The notes beneath the pieces were generated by a model. The model did not search any database, was not told the DNA's origin, and saw nothing but the letters and a program-made list of their open reading frames with translations. This document shows positions 9,962-43,786 of a stretch of 64,000 nt of DNA, one piece after another; positions within the stretch are counted from its first letter, which is position 1, and the number at the start of each line of letters is the position of its first letter. This stretch comes from Actinomycetota bacterium. Its GTDB lineage: Bacteria; Actinomycetota; Acidimicrobiia; Acidimicrobiales; MedAcidi-G1. Made by a program: the position numbers and the translations under genes. The stretch is from assembly GCA_002721755.1 (NCBI GenBank), contig PBLL01000030.1:1-64000 (forward strand), given 5' to 3'.

Positions 9962-12508
9962 TTGTTTGAGAGGTTTACAGATAGAGCTCGTCGTGTGGTT
10001 GTATTAGCTCAAGAAGAAGCGCGTCTACTTAACCATAATTACATAGGAACTGAGCATATTTTACTTGGACTCATCCATGAAGGAGAGGGAGTGGCCGCTA
10101 AGGCACTCGAGTCTTTAGGCATCTCGCTTGAAGGAGTTCGTGGTCAAGTAGAAGAGCTAATAGGTCAAGGCGGAAGTTCCCCAAGCGGTCATATACCTTT
10201 TACACCTCGTGCAAAAAAAGTCTTGGAGTTGTCCTTAAGAGAAGCGCTTCAATTAGGTCACAATTACATAGGAACAGAACATATACTTCTGGGGCTAATC
10301 CGTGAAGGAGAAGGGGTTGCAGCCCAAGTATTAGTTAAGTTAGGTGCGGATTTATCAAGAGTCCGTCAGCAAGTTATCCAACTTCTTTCTGGTTATGCAG
10401 GATCAGGTGGTCCGATGGGGGCGGCTTCTGAGAAAGCTGGTGCAACCACTGGGAGTAGAGGATCAGAATCACAGTCTGGTTCTCTTGTACTTGACCAATT
10501 TGGAAGAAATCTTACACAAGCAGCTACAGAGAAAAAGTTAGATCCTGTAATTGGTAGAAAGCGTGAATTGGAAAGAGTGATGCAGGTTCTGTCACGTAGA
10601 ACGAAGAATAATCCCGTCTTGGTTGGAGAACCCGGTGTTGGTAAAACAGCGATTGTTGAAGGTCTTGCTCAAATGGTTGCTGGTGGTGACATCCCTGAGA
10701 CAATTCAGGGTAAACAAATTTATACATTGGATCTGGGTGCCTTGGTCGCGGGAAGTCGCTATCGAGGTGATTTTGAAGAACGTCTCAAGAAAGTTTTAAA
10801 AGAAATTAAAACAAGAGGTGACATTGTTTTGTTTATTGATGAAATTCACACCTTAGTTGGGGCAGGTGCTGCAGAAGGAGCAATAGATGCAGCTTCCATT
10901 TTAAAACCTATGTTGGCTAGAGGTGAATTGCAGACAATTGGTGCTACGACTCTAGAAGAATATAGAAAACATATAGAAAAAGATGCCGCCTTAGAAAGAC
11001 GCTTCCAACCAATAACTGTTGATGAGCCTGATGTTGCTCATACCATTGAAATACTTAAAGGTTTAAGAGAGCGATATGAAACTCATCACCGAGTAACAAT
11101 TACAGATCAGGCTCTCATAGCTGCAGCTAATTTAGCTGATCGTTATATTTCCGACCGTCATCTTCCAGATAAAGCAATTGATCTAATTGACGAGGCAGGT
11201 TCGCGGCTTCGATTAAGACGTATGAATACGCCGGACGATTTAAGAGAACTTGAAGTTGAATTGGCTGAAGTAGTTCAACGTAAGAAAGCGGCTGTTGAGT
11301 CTCAAGATTTTGAAGAAGCTGGAAATTTGCGTGATCGTGAGAAAGAATTAATTTCAAGGAAGACCGAAAGAGAAGAAGAAATTAAATCTTCAGGAGTTGA
11401 TCTTTTCGATGAAGTTGACGAAGAGTGTATAGCTGAAGTTCTTTCTGTTTGGACAGGTATACCTGTTTACAAACTAACTGAGGAAGAAACTCAAAAACTT
11501 CTCCATATGGAAGATGATCTACATAAGCGAGTAATAGGCCAAGAGGATGCAATTCATGCAGTTAGTCAAGCTATTAGACGGACTAGGGCAGGGTTAAAAG
11601 ATCCTAAAAGACCATCAGGTTCATTTGTTTTCCTGGGGCCTTCAGGAGTAGGCAAAACAGAACTAGCTAAAACACTGGCAGAGTTTCTTTTCGGTGATGA
11701 ACAGGCTTTGATTTCACTCGACATGTCAGAATATATGGAAAAGCATACTGTAAGCAGGCTTCTTGGTTCACCGCCAGGTTACGTGGGATATGACGAAGGC
11801 GGTCAATTAACTGAAGCTGTAAGAAGGAAACCTTTTTCAGTGGTTCTTTTTGATGAAGTAGAGAAAGCCCATCCTGATGTTTTCAACACATTATTGCAGA
11901 TACTTGAAGAAGGCAGATTGACTGACTCTCAGGGAAGGTCAGTGGATTTCAGGAACACAGTACTCATCATGACATCCAATTTGGGAACGGCAGATTTGCG
12001 CAAAGCCAATTTAGGTTTTACTAAAGCAGACGAGGCTGTTAGTTACGAGAGGATGAAAGAAAAAGTTCAAGATGCTTTGAAACTACACTTCCGACCAGAG
12101 TTTCTGAATCGAATAGATGAAACGATAGTTTTCCATGAGTTGACCATGGAAGAGGTAACAAGAATTGTTGATCTGATGATAGGTCGTTTATCAACTCAAT
12201 TAGCTGGACAAGGAATGGGATTGGAATTAACTGACGCGGTTAAGCATCATTTAGCTGAACATGGTTACGATCCGACATTGGGCGCTAGACCTTTAAGAAG
12301 AGCTATTCAAAGGCTTATAGAAGACCCACTGTCAGAACGTTTGTTACACAAAGAATTTAAAGCGGGCGAAATAGTGATAGTAGATGTTGAAGAAGTTCCA
12401 GAAGAAGAGACAGATGATTCTACTTATGAAGGTAAAAAAGTCGTTTTCCGTTCAGTTGCAGGATTTGAGATACCGACCATGGAGATGGCAACTGAGATAG
12501 TTGAATAG
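9962..12508 (+). CDS. clpC: ATP-dependent Clp protease ATP-binding subunit ClpC (TTG start)
   Basis: Duplicated Clp_N repeats, two Walker A/B sites ([19 protein letters not shown]), UVR motif region, [21 protein letters not shown]-terminus. Confidence 0.96.
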
Positions 12509-32484: not shown

Positions 32485-34782
32485 ATGAGTGGTCTTTTTA
32501 TCGAAGACTTGCTTTTAGAAACTTCTACAACTGGTTCAATTTTCTGCGCACAGCTTACTAAACGCGTAGATCAATTTATAGAAGAGATTTTTCAATTAGC
32601 AGGCTCTCCAGAGGAGGTATCAGTTTGCGCTATTGGAGGTTACGGAAGAGAAGAACTTTGTCCAGGTAGCGACATCGATGTACTACTAATACATGATGCA
32701 TCGTTTGATATTTCAGAAGTAGCTGAAAAAATCTGGTATCCGTTATGGGATGCTGGTTTTAAATTAGGTCATCAGGTTGGTACACAAAAAGAGATTCTTA
32801 ATCTTGCAGAATCAAACCTTGAAACAGCTACAAGCTTGCTATCTGCACGTATCGTTGCTGGAAATGACAAAATTTTTGATGGATTAGCGAGTGAAGCGCA
32901 AGACCAATGGATCGGAAGATTTCACAAATACTTAAAAGAGCTGGGAAATACTGTTCAAGATAGGTATGAGAAATTCGGTGAAGTTGCTTTTCGTCTCGAA
33001 CCGGAATTGAAACAAGGTAGAGGAGGTTTAAGAGATGCTCATATTTTGCAATGGATGGAGATTGCAGAACCAATTTTAATTACCTCTGAATCTAAAGGTT
33101 TAATGGATGCGGTAGAAACGCTCCTATCTGTTCGCGTGGAATTACATAGAGTGACAGGGAAACGTTCAGATCGGCTTTTATTGGAACTTCAGGATGAAGT
33201 TGCTGAAAAACTAAAATACGAAAATGCCGACCAATTGATGAGTTCCGTTGCAAATGCAGCGAGGGTAATTACATGGACTGGAGATGGTGCAGCAAGACGT
33301 ATAGAAAGAATCAGACAGTCTACATCTGTTAGGAAGTCTCTAAATAAGCTTCGCAACACAGAAATTTCTCCACATTTTGAATTAGATCGTGGACGCTTAG
33401 GTTTGACTCAAGAAGCTGATAAAACAGATCCATTTCTGCCTTTAAGGGCAGCTGTCCTAGCAAGCAGATTTGGTGCGTATTTGGAAAGAATATCTCTGGA
33501 GAAATTAGAAGACAGTAAAACAGAAATACCTCAGATCTGGCCGGAAGAGGCGAGATTGTTACTTATAGAACTCTTAATGTCTGGCTCCAAGGCAGTTTCG
33601 ATTATTGAGGACTTAGACCAGTACGGTTTATTCTCACACTTGATTCCAGAGTGGGAAGCTTGCCGTTCGAAGCCTCAAAGAAATGCCTATCACATGTTCA
33701 CAGTTGATCGTCATCTACTGGAAACAGTTTCAGTGGCTGCGAGTCTAACAACTTCGGTAGAACGACCTGATTTACTGGTTCTCGGTGCCCTACTCCATGA
33801 CATCGGCAAGGGATACCCAGGTGATCATACAGAAGTAGGAATGGATTTAGTAAAGGCCATTGCTCAAAGAATGGGCTATAAGAATAATGATGTTGAATTG
33901 TTGGTAGGTATGGTTGAACATCATCTTTTGCTCCCAGATGTAGCTACACGACGTGACCTAGACGATGATGGGACAATAAAATCCGTAGCGACTTCAGTAA
34001 AAACTCTGTCGCTTCTTTCCCTTCTGGATGCGCTAACTGAAGCTGACTCGATTGCAACAGGGCCGTCAGCGTGGAGCAGTTGGAAGGCTGGTCTTGTCAG
34101 GGACCTAGTAGCCCGTGTTCAACATGTTTTATCGGGTGGAGATGTAGAAGAAATTATTGAAACAATATTTCCAAGTGAAAAACAAATTGACAAAATGCAA
34201 TCCGATGAGGAAATTTTTTCAGGAGATGGGTTTAAATTTACCGTTATCACTAAAGATCGAACTGGTGTATTTTCAAAAGTTGCAGGCGTACTAGCACTCA
34301 ATGGACTTGATGTAATAGGAGCAGATGCATTTTCGGAAGCTGGAAGAGCTTTATCAGTCTTTTCAGTAGATGAAAAATCTACTGATGCGCCTAATTGGCA
34401 AGAAATTTCACAGCAAGTTCGATTAGCACTAGATGGCCGGTTAGCTCTTGCCGCAAGACTTGGTGAACGTTCGCGTGTTTACAGTTCGGTTTCAACCAGT
34501 GCAAGACCTTTTGATCCGAAAGTAGAAGTCGACAATTCAATTTCTGACTCTGCGACAGTTTTAGAAATAAGTTGTCCAGATGGAATTGGAGTTCTGTACC
34601 GGATTACAAGAGCTTTCACTGAACTCGATTTGAATATAGTCAGAGCTCGAGTTCAGACCTTAGGTTCAGATGTAGTTGATGCATTTTATGTTCTTGATGC
34701 AAATGGTGAAAAAATTGAAGATCCAGATCATCTGAGTGAAATTGAATTATCAGTTTTACGTTGGCTAACGACTGATTTGTAG
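32485..34782 (+). CDS. glnD: [Protein-PII] uridylyltransferase / uridylyl-removing enzyme
   Basis: CAIGGYGREELCPGSDIDVLLIHD, HD domain LGALLHDIGKGYPGDHTEVG, two C-terminal ACT domains. Confidence 0.92.
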   Translation: MSGLFIEDLLLETSTTGSIFCAQLTKRVDQFIEEIFQLAGSPEEVSVCAIGGYGREELCPGSDIDVLLIHDASFDISEVAEKIWYPLWDAGFKLGHQVGTQKEILNLAESNLETATSLLSARIVAGNDKIFDGLASEAQDQWIGRFHKYLKELGNTVQDRYEKFGEVAFRLEPELKQGRGGLRDAHILQWMEIAEPILITSESKGLMDAVETLLSVRVELHRVTGKRSDRLLLELQDEVAEKLKYENADQLMSSVANAARVITWTGDGAARRIERIRQSTSVRKSLNKLRNTEISPHFELDRGRLGLTQEADKTDPFLPLRAAVLASRFGAYLERISLEKLEDSKTEIPQIWPEEARLLLIELLMSGSKAVSIIEDLDQYGLFSHLIPEWEACRSKPQRNAYHMFTVDRHLLETVSVAASLTTSVERPDLLVLGALLHDIGKGYPGDHTEVGMDLVKAIAQRMGYKNNDVELLVGMVEHHLLLPDVATRRDLDDDGTIKSVATSVKTLSLLSLLDALTEADSIATGPSAWSSWKAGLVRDLVARVQHVLSGGDVEEIIETIFPSEKQIDKMQSDEEIFSGDGFKFTVITKDRTGVFSKVAGVLALNGLDVIGADAFSEAGRALSVFSVDEKSTDAPNWQEISQQVRLALDGRLALAARLGERSRVYSSVSTSARPFDPKVEVDNSISDSATVLEISCPDGIGVLYRITRAFTELDLNIVRARVQTLGSDVVDAFYVLDANGEKIEDPDHLSEIELSVLRWLTTDL

Positions 34783-34789
34783 ATTCTGT

Positions 34790-34876
34790 GTGATGAATTG
34801 CTCTAGTTGCTCTACCTTGGTTATATGTTTGAAATGTCTTCAGAAGCAACGACCAAACAAGATCTACTGAGATGGG
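34790..34876 (+). repeat. 87-bp imperfect direct repeat, copy 1 (remnant of Nudix gene 5' end)
   Basis: Aligns without gaps to 35284-35370 with 11 hand-counted mismatches, all transitions; encodes MFEMSSEATTKQDLLRW versus MSETPSEAVTKQDLLRW. Confidence 0.9.
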
Positions 34877-34897
34877 TTATTCATAAGGGAAATTCCA

Positions 34898-35269
34898 ATG
34901 AGTGAAGAAGAGAACCGTTTCGAAGAAGCAGCGATAGAGGCAGAATTTGAGACCGGATACCGCGAAGAAACTCGGCAGGAAGCTCGCCGTGGAGTCGCCA
35001 CCCGTCTCTTCCGCGTTACTGCGGGATCGTTTATAACAGTTCTTGGCGTCATTTTGATACCGCTACCTGGGCCCGGTCTGTTGGTTGTCGCTATCGGTCT
35101 CGGCGTTCTCAGCAGAGATGTTGCCTGGGCCGATCGCCTTCTTCAAATAGTGCGGCGCCGGCTACCAAGCGATAGTGAGGGCCGGTTGCCGAGGTCCACA
35201 ATCGCCACCATAGTTGTTCTGGCATTAGCGGGCGTCGCGTTTTCAGTTTGGGTGGTATTCCTGGACTGA
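34898..35269 (+). CDS. TIGR02611/PGPGW family membrane protein
   Basis: VLGVILIPLPGPGLLVVAIGLGVLSRDVAWADRLLQIVRRRLP; visibly GC-richer than its neighbours. Confidence 0.8.
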   Translation: MSEEENRFEEAAIEAEFETGYREETRQEARRGVATRLFRVTAGSFITVLGVILIPLPGPGLLVVAIGLGVLSRDVAWADRLLQIVRRRLPSDSEGRLPRSTIATIVVLALAGVAFSVWVVFLD

Positions 35270-35283
35270 TTTACAAATTTTTA

Positions 35284-35370
35284 GTGACGAATCGCTCTGG
35301 TTGCTCTACCTTGGTTATATGTCTGAAACACCTTCAGAAGCAGTGACTAAACAAGATCTATTGAGATGGG
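35284..35370 (+). repeat. 87-bp imperfect direct repeat, copy 2 (intact Nudix 5' end)
   Basis: See copy 1 at 34790-34876. Confidence 0.9.
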
Positions 35371-36047
35371 CGGAAACCATTGCAGGTGTCGCTCGAACAG
35401 GACTCGCATTCACCGAAGTTTTATATGAACGTGAGCGCTATGAAGAGATTCTAAAAGTAGCCGCAGATATTAAACAGTATGCTAAAGGCAGCAGCTCAAA
35501 TCCAGATGAGTTATATGAAGGTTGGCGTGATTCAGTAATTGAAGGAACACCAGGCTACGCGACTCCAAAAGTAACTGTTGGTGCTGTTGTAGGAAATGAC
35601 GATGGGGAAATTTTGCTTGTCCAACGAGCGGATTCAGGAAGATGGCTTTATCCAACTGGTTGGGCAGATATAGGTTATTCAGCCTCGGAGGTAGTAGTAA
35701 AAGAAGTCGTGGAAGAGACAGGTATCGAATGTGAAGTAGTTAAACCTATTGCCATTCTCGACGGAATGAGGTTGGGCTTTACTGGAATACCCCTCTATTC
35801 GCTTGTTTTTCATTGCCAAATGACAGGTGGAACTTTGAAACCGCACCCTTTAGAGTGCAGCGATGTCGGATTTTTCAGCGAAAACTCATTACCAAAAGAA
35901 ACTGTTTCGCCACAAAGATGGGCATCACACGCATTTGCAGCTATTAGAGGTGAAGACGTAGAAGTAATGTTTGACCGACCTCGTGAGCCTGTTTGGTTAG
36001 ACGAAAACGATAAAGAAAACATTTCAGAAGTCTTTCCCGACCTCTAA
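35319..36047 (+). CDS. Nudix hydrolase with N-terminal NUDIX_N_2-like domain
   Basis: RWAETIAGVARTGLAFTEVLYERERYEEILKVAADI; Nudix box GWADIGYSASEVVVKEVVEETGIE. Confidence 0.87.
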   Translation: MSETPSEAVTKQDLLRWAETIAGVARTGLAFTEVLYERERYEEILKVAADIKQYAKGSSSNPDELYEGWRDSVIEGTPGYATPKVTVGAVVGNDDGEILLVQRADSGRWLYPTGWADIGYSASEVVVKEVVEETGIECEVVKPIAILDGMRLGFTGIPLYSLVFHCQMTGGTLKPHPLECSDVGFFSENSLPKETVSPQRWASHAFAAIRGEDVEVMFDRPREPVWLDENDKENISEVFPDL

Positions 36048-42307: not shown

Positions 42308-43786
42308 GTGAAAAGGTTATTATTTGCTACTAACTGTTGTTTGATAGTTCTTCTTGTTGCCTGCGGAGGAGAAGAAGAAATCGAGTCAAACACACCGGCT
42401 CCTACCACGACGGCAGCTCCGACCACGACTGCAGCTCCTGCTACGACTGCAGCTCCGACTACGACGACTGCAGCTCCGACCACTACTGCAGCTCCGACCA
42501 CGACTGCAGCTCCTGCTACGACTGCAGCTCCTGCTACGACTGCAGCTCCGACCACGACTGCAGCTCCGACCACGACAGCAGCTCCAATTGTTCTGACAGA
42601 CTCTTTCAGAGGTGTTACAGCTGAAACGATAAAAGTTGGCTTTACATCAATCGACTTCGAACTATTTAATGAACAATTCCCCGGTCTCAATCTGACATAT
42701 GCGAATTACCCACCGATGGTAGATGTGCTTGTAGAAGACCTAAACGCAAGAGGTGGCATTCTAGGTCGGAAAGTAGAGATCATTCATCGTTTGTTTTTAC
42801 CCGTTGGACCTTTAACCGCCGAAGTTGCATGTGTTGAATTAACAGAAGATGAAGAAGTTTTTGCAGTGCTAAATGGTTTTGCTGGACCCGGAGCAGAAGG
42901 AGTTAATGAGTGTTTTACCGACACTTACGAAACTATTCTCGTAGGAGCTAAACCAACTATCGAACAATTAGATAGAGCGCGTGCATCTTGGATAACCACG
43001 GACATAAATCTCAGTAGGCGCGGACAAGCATTTGTAAGTCTTCTGAGACAAACTGAGAGCCTCGAAGATCTAGGAAAAGTAATGATTTGGGGTGCGGATC
43101 CTGAATCCGAACCTGTCATGGACGAAGTCAAAGCTCTACTTGAAGCAGAGGGTGTCTCAGTCCCAGTTGTAACATCAAATGAAAACACAGGTGATGAGAC
43201 AGCCACGATTGCGTTTTTAGAGGTAGTTCTTGAAAAAGCTAGAAGTGAAGGAGTTTCGACAATCTGGTTCGTGGGGGAAGCAATTTACGCAATGGAGTAC
43301 CTTTTCGGATTAGGAGATGAATTTAACCTTTTACTTCACAATGGCGATTCTTTGAATATGTGGTCCCAAGAACCACCTCCAGAAATTGAAAACTCCGGGT
43401 TGATTCTTACTAACAAGGCGTTTGATAGCCGTGAAGATCCATCTTTCGCTCATTGCATGGACCTTGTAGAGGACTCACTCGGAATTGAGGTGCGACCCCC
43501 GGACAAGCTTGAACCTGAAGAGACAAATTATTGGCCGGGCACAGCAGGACCTTGTCAATTCTTAGCTCTATTCGAAGCAGTAGCGACTGCCGCAGGACCT
43601 GATTTAACAAATGAATCTTTTGCACAAGCTGCAGCTGAAATTGGGAATTTTTCTCTACCCGGTTACAAATATGTTTCACTTGGACCTGACAAGTTTGATG
43701 CAAGAGATTCTCTTATATTGGGACGTTGGAACAAAGACAAGGGTGAATGGGAAGCAATTTCAGAAGAAATTAATACCTCAAAATGA
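42308..43786 (+). CDS. Branched-chain amino acid ABC-type substrate-binding lipoprotein with Ala/Pro/Thr repeat linker
   Basis: GTG start after AAGGGGG; lipobox LLVAC; repeat linker; then GVTAETIKVGFTSID...MVDVLVEDLNARGGILGRKVEIIHRLF as in Periplasmic_BP_6 proteins. Confidence 0.82.
   Translation: MKRLLFATNCCLIVLLVACGGEEEIESNTPAPTTTAAPTTTAAPATTAAPTTTTAAPTTTAAPTTTAAPATTAAPATTAAPTTTAAPTTTAAPIVLTDSFRGVTAETIKVGFTSIDFELFNEQFPGLNLTYANYPPMVDVLVEDLNARGGILGRKVEIIHRLFLPVGPLTAEVACVELTEDEEVFAVLNGFAGPGAEGVNECFTDTYETILVGAKPTIEQLDRARASWITTDINLSRRGQAFVSLLRQTESLEDLGKVMIWGADPESEPVMDEVKALLEAEGVSVPVVTSNENTGDETATIAFLEVVLEKARSEGVSTIWFVGEAIYAMEYLFGLGDEFNLLLHNGDSLNMWSQEPPPEIENSGLILTNKAFDSREDPSFAHCMDLVEDSLGIEVRPPDKLEPEETNYWPGTAGPCQFLALFEAVATAAGPDLTNESFAQAAAEIGNFSLPGYKYVSLGPDKFDARDSLILGRWNKDKGEWEAISEEINTSK
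42405..42590 (+). repeat. In-frame 18-bp tandem repeat encoding APTTTA/APATTA
   Basis: About 10 tandem units of GCTCC(G/T)(A/G)CCACGACTGCA, one expanded to 21 bp. Confidence 0.92.

Follow-up and report, generated by a model that had tools for sequence, protein, structure and literature searches.

Microhomology-mediated template switching is a known mechanism, and it is one of several described processes with which the arrival of a new gene can be compared. Insertion with long target duplication in Helicobacter pylori (Nobusato et al. 2000, Gene 259:99) is described in PMC1643837, and "long and variable target duplications" are described in PMC3031569. The known cases of this type are mostly restriction-modification genes of H. 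pylori (PMC1643837, PMC3031569). When linear DNA was homologous to the Escherichia coli chromosome at one end, the usual outcome was a duplication of the target, through circularisation and a single crossover (PMC3240628). Here we examine a locus in a genus of marine Actinomycetota, found in a window (the whole stretch of DNA analysed) of 64,000 nucleotides. A small gene lying there between two others was very probably acquired from a foreign source, inserted a single time with duplication of its target, and later spread between species.

On the forward strand, glnD, encoding [protein-PII] uridylyltransferase (32485..34782; NCBIfam PRK03381, E 2e-228), is followed by a PGPGW gene (PF09656; 34898..35269) for a helical membrane protein of 123 amino acids, and then by a Nudix hydrolase gene (35319..36047; Pfam NUDIX 47.8 bits, Nudix_N 37 bits). 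The PGPGW protein reaches 59 bits in Pfam, above the gathering cut-off of 23.3 bits for PF09656, and it shares with that family a PLPGPG core and flanking hydrophobic helices. Unlike the members of TIGR02611, it falls short of the 70.6-bit cut-off of that model, with a partial match of 47.8 bits. Its predicted structure consists only of helices (pLDDT 70, moderate confidence); dN/dS is about 0.2, and the gene is under purifying selection. The original prediction had the gene differ from its neighbours in GC and codon use, and a foreign composition is borne out by a GC of 0.556 and a GC3 of 0.516, against 0.410 and 0.267 for glnD and 0.443 and 0.298 for Nudix, and by a different codon bias. As also predicted, there is no transposase: within the insert we find no gene besides PGPGW, no recombinase, and no pair of terminal inverted repeats bounding it.

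The gene is enclosed by a direct repeat. Positions 34790-34876 and 35284-35370 align without gaps over 87 bp with 11 mismatches, every one a transition, and re-alignment gives exactly this predicted result. The homology continues leftward into the last glnD codons, over 107 bp at 84% (BLAST E ~1e-25 within the window), so that the repeat is real but its unit measures about 105-110 bp and not 87. Copy 1 (34770..34876, + strand) begins at GACTGATTT in the last glnD codons, where the duplicated target has its left boundary, and comprises the glnD tail, the spacer, a promoter-like -10 element and the first 17-18 Nudix codons. Copy 2 (35264..35370, + strand) is the functional site, with the spacer, the Nudix promoter and the Nudix start. 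It had been proposed that the insertion struck the 5' end of the Nudix gene; the target is indeed duplicated, but Nudix is intact and copy 1 is a truncated extra copy. A conserved promoter element had been the other possibility for the repeat. A promoter-like element does lie inside it, but because the repeat also spans glnD codons and 18-19 Nudix codons, it is a true duplication, with a unit of about 105-110 bp. This is much longer than the target duplications of transposons.

The same repeat pair is present in three other genomes of the genus, G001, G002 and G007 (81-87%). Over 110 bp the pair in the window has 20 mismatches, 17 of them transitions, and the pairs in other species include 4-5 transversions; the all-transition pattern is true of the window pair over 87 bp, but it is not a signature. 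In the window genome (G000) and in G002, copies 1 and 2 have some lineage-specific bases in common, which would need gene conversion or convergence on top of the best explanation. Misassembly is ruled out, as the insert and its left junction recur in five assemblies. No second comparable spaced repeat pair occurs in 450 kb of the window genome, where the remaining matches are a contig end, internal repeats of ClpC and a low-complexity lipoprotein repeat. A perfect 116-bp direct repeat (L145:18306-18781), the other copy of which lies right where contig C7 of this genome stops, is probably an assembly end effect. At 42398-42585 a tandem low-complexity repeat encodes an Ala-Pro-Thr-rich stretch after a lipoprotein-like signal, and an 84-bp repeat of 75% at 10015-10323 is the internal N-domain repeat of ClpC.

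Our sample of the genus consists of nine genomes, each 68-84% complete. PGPGW occupies the same site with the same junctions in five of them (G000, G001, G002, G006 and G007), the right joint being rewritten in G006. The predicted empty sites exist in the other four (G003, G004, G005 and G008), where glnD is followed by 43-44 bp and then by Nudix, and the repeat segment is single. PGPGW is absent from the sampled family members outside the genus (0/28), and in most of the other genera examined glnD adjoins Nudix, which indicates that the empty state is ancestral. In G006 (L057/L080) the copy-2 spacer and promoter have given way to about 30 bp of unrelated DNA, located between the stop codon of PGPGW and codon 10 of Nudix, and Nudix has a new start (MEKTEQIATKQ); the site has here been rewritten locally a second time. 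The G007 gene (L058) is interrupted by a scaffold gap, seen as a long stretch of N, which may conceal a larger piece or one that is simply unresolved.

The PGPGW proteins of the genus have their nearest counterparts in f121, another family of the order, where they are carried by MedAcidi-G3, MED-G01, SP219, NAT188 and others. These are 58-91% identical to the window protein, the closest being that of the metagenome-assembled genome NAT188 (L100), at 91%. In f121 the locus is syntenic, with an MBL-fold gene on one side and mostly a fumarate hydratase gene on the other; it adjoins neither glnD nor Nudix, and it is unrelated to the locus in the window and free of the repeat. The SP219 assembly carries this locus on two contigs (L086, L087) with equal identity, which is likely redundant assembly. 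In both protein and DNA trees, the five copies of the genus form one clade nested in f121 with NAT188 as sister (99/99); the G007 row of the protein tree is misframed after its N gap, and the DNA tree with the corrected frame agrees. The gene's phylogeny is thus incongruent with that of its host, as the original prediction had it. Judging from these trees, PGPGW was acquired once, from a marine acidimicrobial lineage near NAT188 that belongs to the other family and has 51-55% GC, against 42.5% in the host genus. NAT188 stands in as a proxy for the true donor (dS 0.25-0.43). In its alignment, donor homology starts about 20-25 bp 5' of the start codon (..GACGATCCTTAAGGG) and ends at the stop codon (CTGA). 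The foreign segment (34877..35269, + strand) thus comprises about 20 nt of donor 5' sequence and the PGPGW gene through its stop codon. Only about 395 bp came across and, given these limits, the donor promoter was probably left behind. A transposon, an integron cassette or an integrase-driven island with long att-like repeats would account for direct repeats on either side of a gene that borders a core gene. Such an element is nevertheless scarcely credible for an insert of one gene with neither recombinase nor terminal inverted repeat, whose donor copy sits in an ordinary syntenic context without a repeat.

At the left joint, host AGATGG(GCG) meets donor (C)GACGATCC, and at the right joint donor GGCTGA meets host GACTGATTT. 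Judged against the proxy donor NAT188, the match is 4 bp (CTGA) on the right and 1-4 bp on the left. A 4-bp GGCG match at the left joint was considered and dropped: the donor sequence reads CGACGATCC, which leaves 1-4 bp and perhaps only 1. The left copy enters foreign DNA after Nudix codon 18-19, and the right copy begins again within the tail of glnD, with which the PGPGW stop codon coincides. Very probably, a fragment of about 395 bp, carrying PGPGW only, was inserted once, by an illegitimate event, where glnD meets Nudix in a single member of the genus. The copying strand would have switched from Nudix codon 18-19 onto donor DNA at a 1-4 bp match (G[G/A]CG), and then returned to the glnD tail at CTGA (4 bp), copying about 105 bp again. 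We favour this out-and-back template switch and give it roughly an even chance of being the actual route, since it leaves no unique mark relative to other routes of insertion and duplication. The same final structure would arise from a chimaeric circle, in which a donor fragment joined to a glnD/Nudix piece circularised and integrated by a single crossover, and most insertions of linear DNA with one homologous end in E. coli did duplicate their target (PMC3240628). This alternative concerns the template-switch step only, and it is unlikely: it calls for a prior chimaeric molecule already bearing a host-like piece of 105 bp, a length that offers little room for a crossover, and no vehicle was found, a search for a mobile one having turned up no relative of PGPGW in phages, plasmids or viral contigs. 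The same step could also be replaced by a double-strand break staggered by about 105 nt, filled in and end-joined to a captured donor fragment, which would give a target duplication with short junction homology. However, a very long stagger would be required, and Ku (PF02735), present in 7 of the 8 other members of the order that were sampled, was found in 0/9 genomes of the genus and in 0/4 other family members. Its absence from all nine genomes disfavours end joining, and we consider the staggered break improbable. ComEC (PF03772) is likewise found in none of the nine genomes of the genus (68-84% complete) and is present in sister genera. A joint absence by chance across nine incomplete genomes is unlikely. 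As ComEC was not found, classical transformation is doubtful.

Whatever its route, a duplication of the target could spare the host gene and at the same time hand the newcomer a promoter. In copy 1 a -10-like hexamer (TANNNT), TACCTT, lies at 34813..34818 on the + strand and ends 6 nt before the ATG. Within the genus TACCTT keeps this distance from the ATG at the empty sites and in both copies of the repeat, except that copy 1 of G001 has TAACTT; in the family outgroups a GCCTACGGT box occurs at the same spacing, just 5' of the Nudix start. Among 48 long ORFs of the window, five have a TANNNT ending at -6, which is the commonest placement. It is probable that copy 1 supplies a leaderless promoter and start codon that now serve PGPGW. 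The transferred DNA, only about 395 bp, begins about 20-25 bp ahead of the PGPGW start codon, so transcription of the gene probably relies on the duplicated Nudix promoter. Starting at the copy-1 ATG, a leader ORF of 26 codons (34825..34905, + strand), which is the truncated Nudix start, has a stop overlapping the PGPGW start (ATGAGTGA). In each of the five occupied genomes this frame, of 26-28 codons, is open and runs into the beginning of PGPGW. A conserved leader peptide is ruled out, as substitutions fall mostly at nonsynonymous sites. The duplicated Nudix promoter and start codon would thus express PGPGW by way of a short overlapping leader ORF. The overlap fits translational coupling, though we infer it with reserve: the leader peptide shows no conservation, and a frame of this length could stay open by chance. 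In G006 the copy-2 spacer and promoter are lost and Nudix directly follows PGPGW, which suggests that the copy-1 promoter works.

In a tree built from 7.2 kb outside the tract, G005 and G006, G001 and G003, and G007 and G008 are sister pairs, each with one occupied and one empty member. The pairs G005/G006 and G007/G008 are recovered on a clpC tree as well, from which G001 is missing. Occupancy is patchy on both trees, with at least 3-4 changes on starred branches; GltD is too incomplete across the genus to be used as a second marker. The last 750 bp of glnD are 97-99% identical between G000 and G002, against a background of 80-86%, and identity is also raised through PGPGW into Nudix. G006 departs from its sister G005 by a G001/G007-like tract from -281 to +203, and G001 departs from G003 by a G007-like tract from -298 to +636 (0/5000 permutations in each case). 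The dS between clades across the deep split is 0.35-0.47 for PGPGW (0.23-0.34 with the gapped G007 copy) and 1.2-1.8 for glnD. Pair by pair, copy-1 distance and PGPGW dS are 0.34/0.355, 0.44/0.466, 0.36/0.377, 0.46/0.452 and 0.26/0.278. Because the two agree and both lie far below the glnD values, copy 1 and PGPGW travel as one block, with copy 1 drifting at the neutral rate, and this block is younger than the species that carry it. The acquisition had been thought ancient; these dS values instead place it after the genus radiation. The patchy occupancy would also be expected if the insert were ancestral to the genus and had been lost several times, and the direct repeats would permit precise excision by recombination between them. 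This is nonetheless very improbable: PGPGW and copy 1 (0.35-0.47) are far younger than the genus split (glnD dS 1.2-1.8), and the tracts sit in occupied genomes, with none at the insert site in the two empty genomes tested, G003 and G008. Sharp tracts centred on the insert, together with a PGPGW dS below that of glnD, show that a single founding event was followed by spread of the gene from species to species through homologous recombination. The tracts show that the block moved by such exchange within the adjoining parts of glnD and Nudix, leaving its present patchy distribution.

Although the general type of event is already known, it is rare for a gene's entry into a streamlined genome to be visible in such detail: this one locus reveals the donor family, both joints, the empty site, a probable source of the promoter and the spread across species. 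A gene can be taken across a genus by homologous recombination in the core genes that flank it, without any mobile element. A more general process is conceivable, in which marine acidimicrobia, apparently lacking Ku and ComEC, actively copy in gene-sized foreign fragments without mobile elements, with target duplications of about 100 bp giving a promoter and a start codon, followed by homologous recombination across species; we regard this extension as rather a long shot. The founding event itself fits insertion with long target duplication: the gene is present in one relative and missing in another with no transposase evident, a long direct repeat flanks the insert and is single at the empty site, and the inserted DNA is foreign by the PGPGW tree and by synteny. 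Unlike the H. pylori cases, the insert is a single membrane-protein gene and not a restriction-modification gene, its host is a marine actinomycetote, and the donor family, both junctions and the later spread are resolved. As in homology-facilitated illegitimate recombination (HFIR) or insertion-duplication (PMC3240628), foreign DNA is joined through illegitimate junctions, sometimes with target duplication; HFIR, however, uses long homology at one end, whereas here the proxy donor L100 shares just 1-4 bp at each joint. Microhomology-mediated template switching would leave short matches at both joints, as may be the case here when judged against the proxy donor, and a backward jump would explain the duplicated segment, but the template would be DNA of another family and not a sequence elsewhere in the same genome. 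Our literature search turned up no account of a template switch that duplicates its target during gene transfer. The novelty of this locus lies in its host group and in the kind of gene that was inserted, as well as in a donor that is resolved, a promoter that was probably supplied and a later spread across species.
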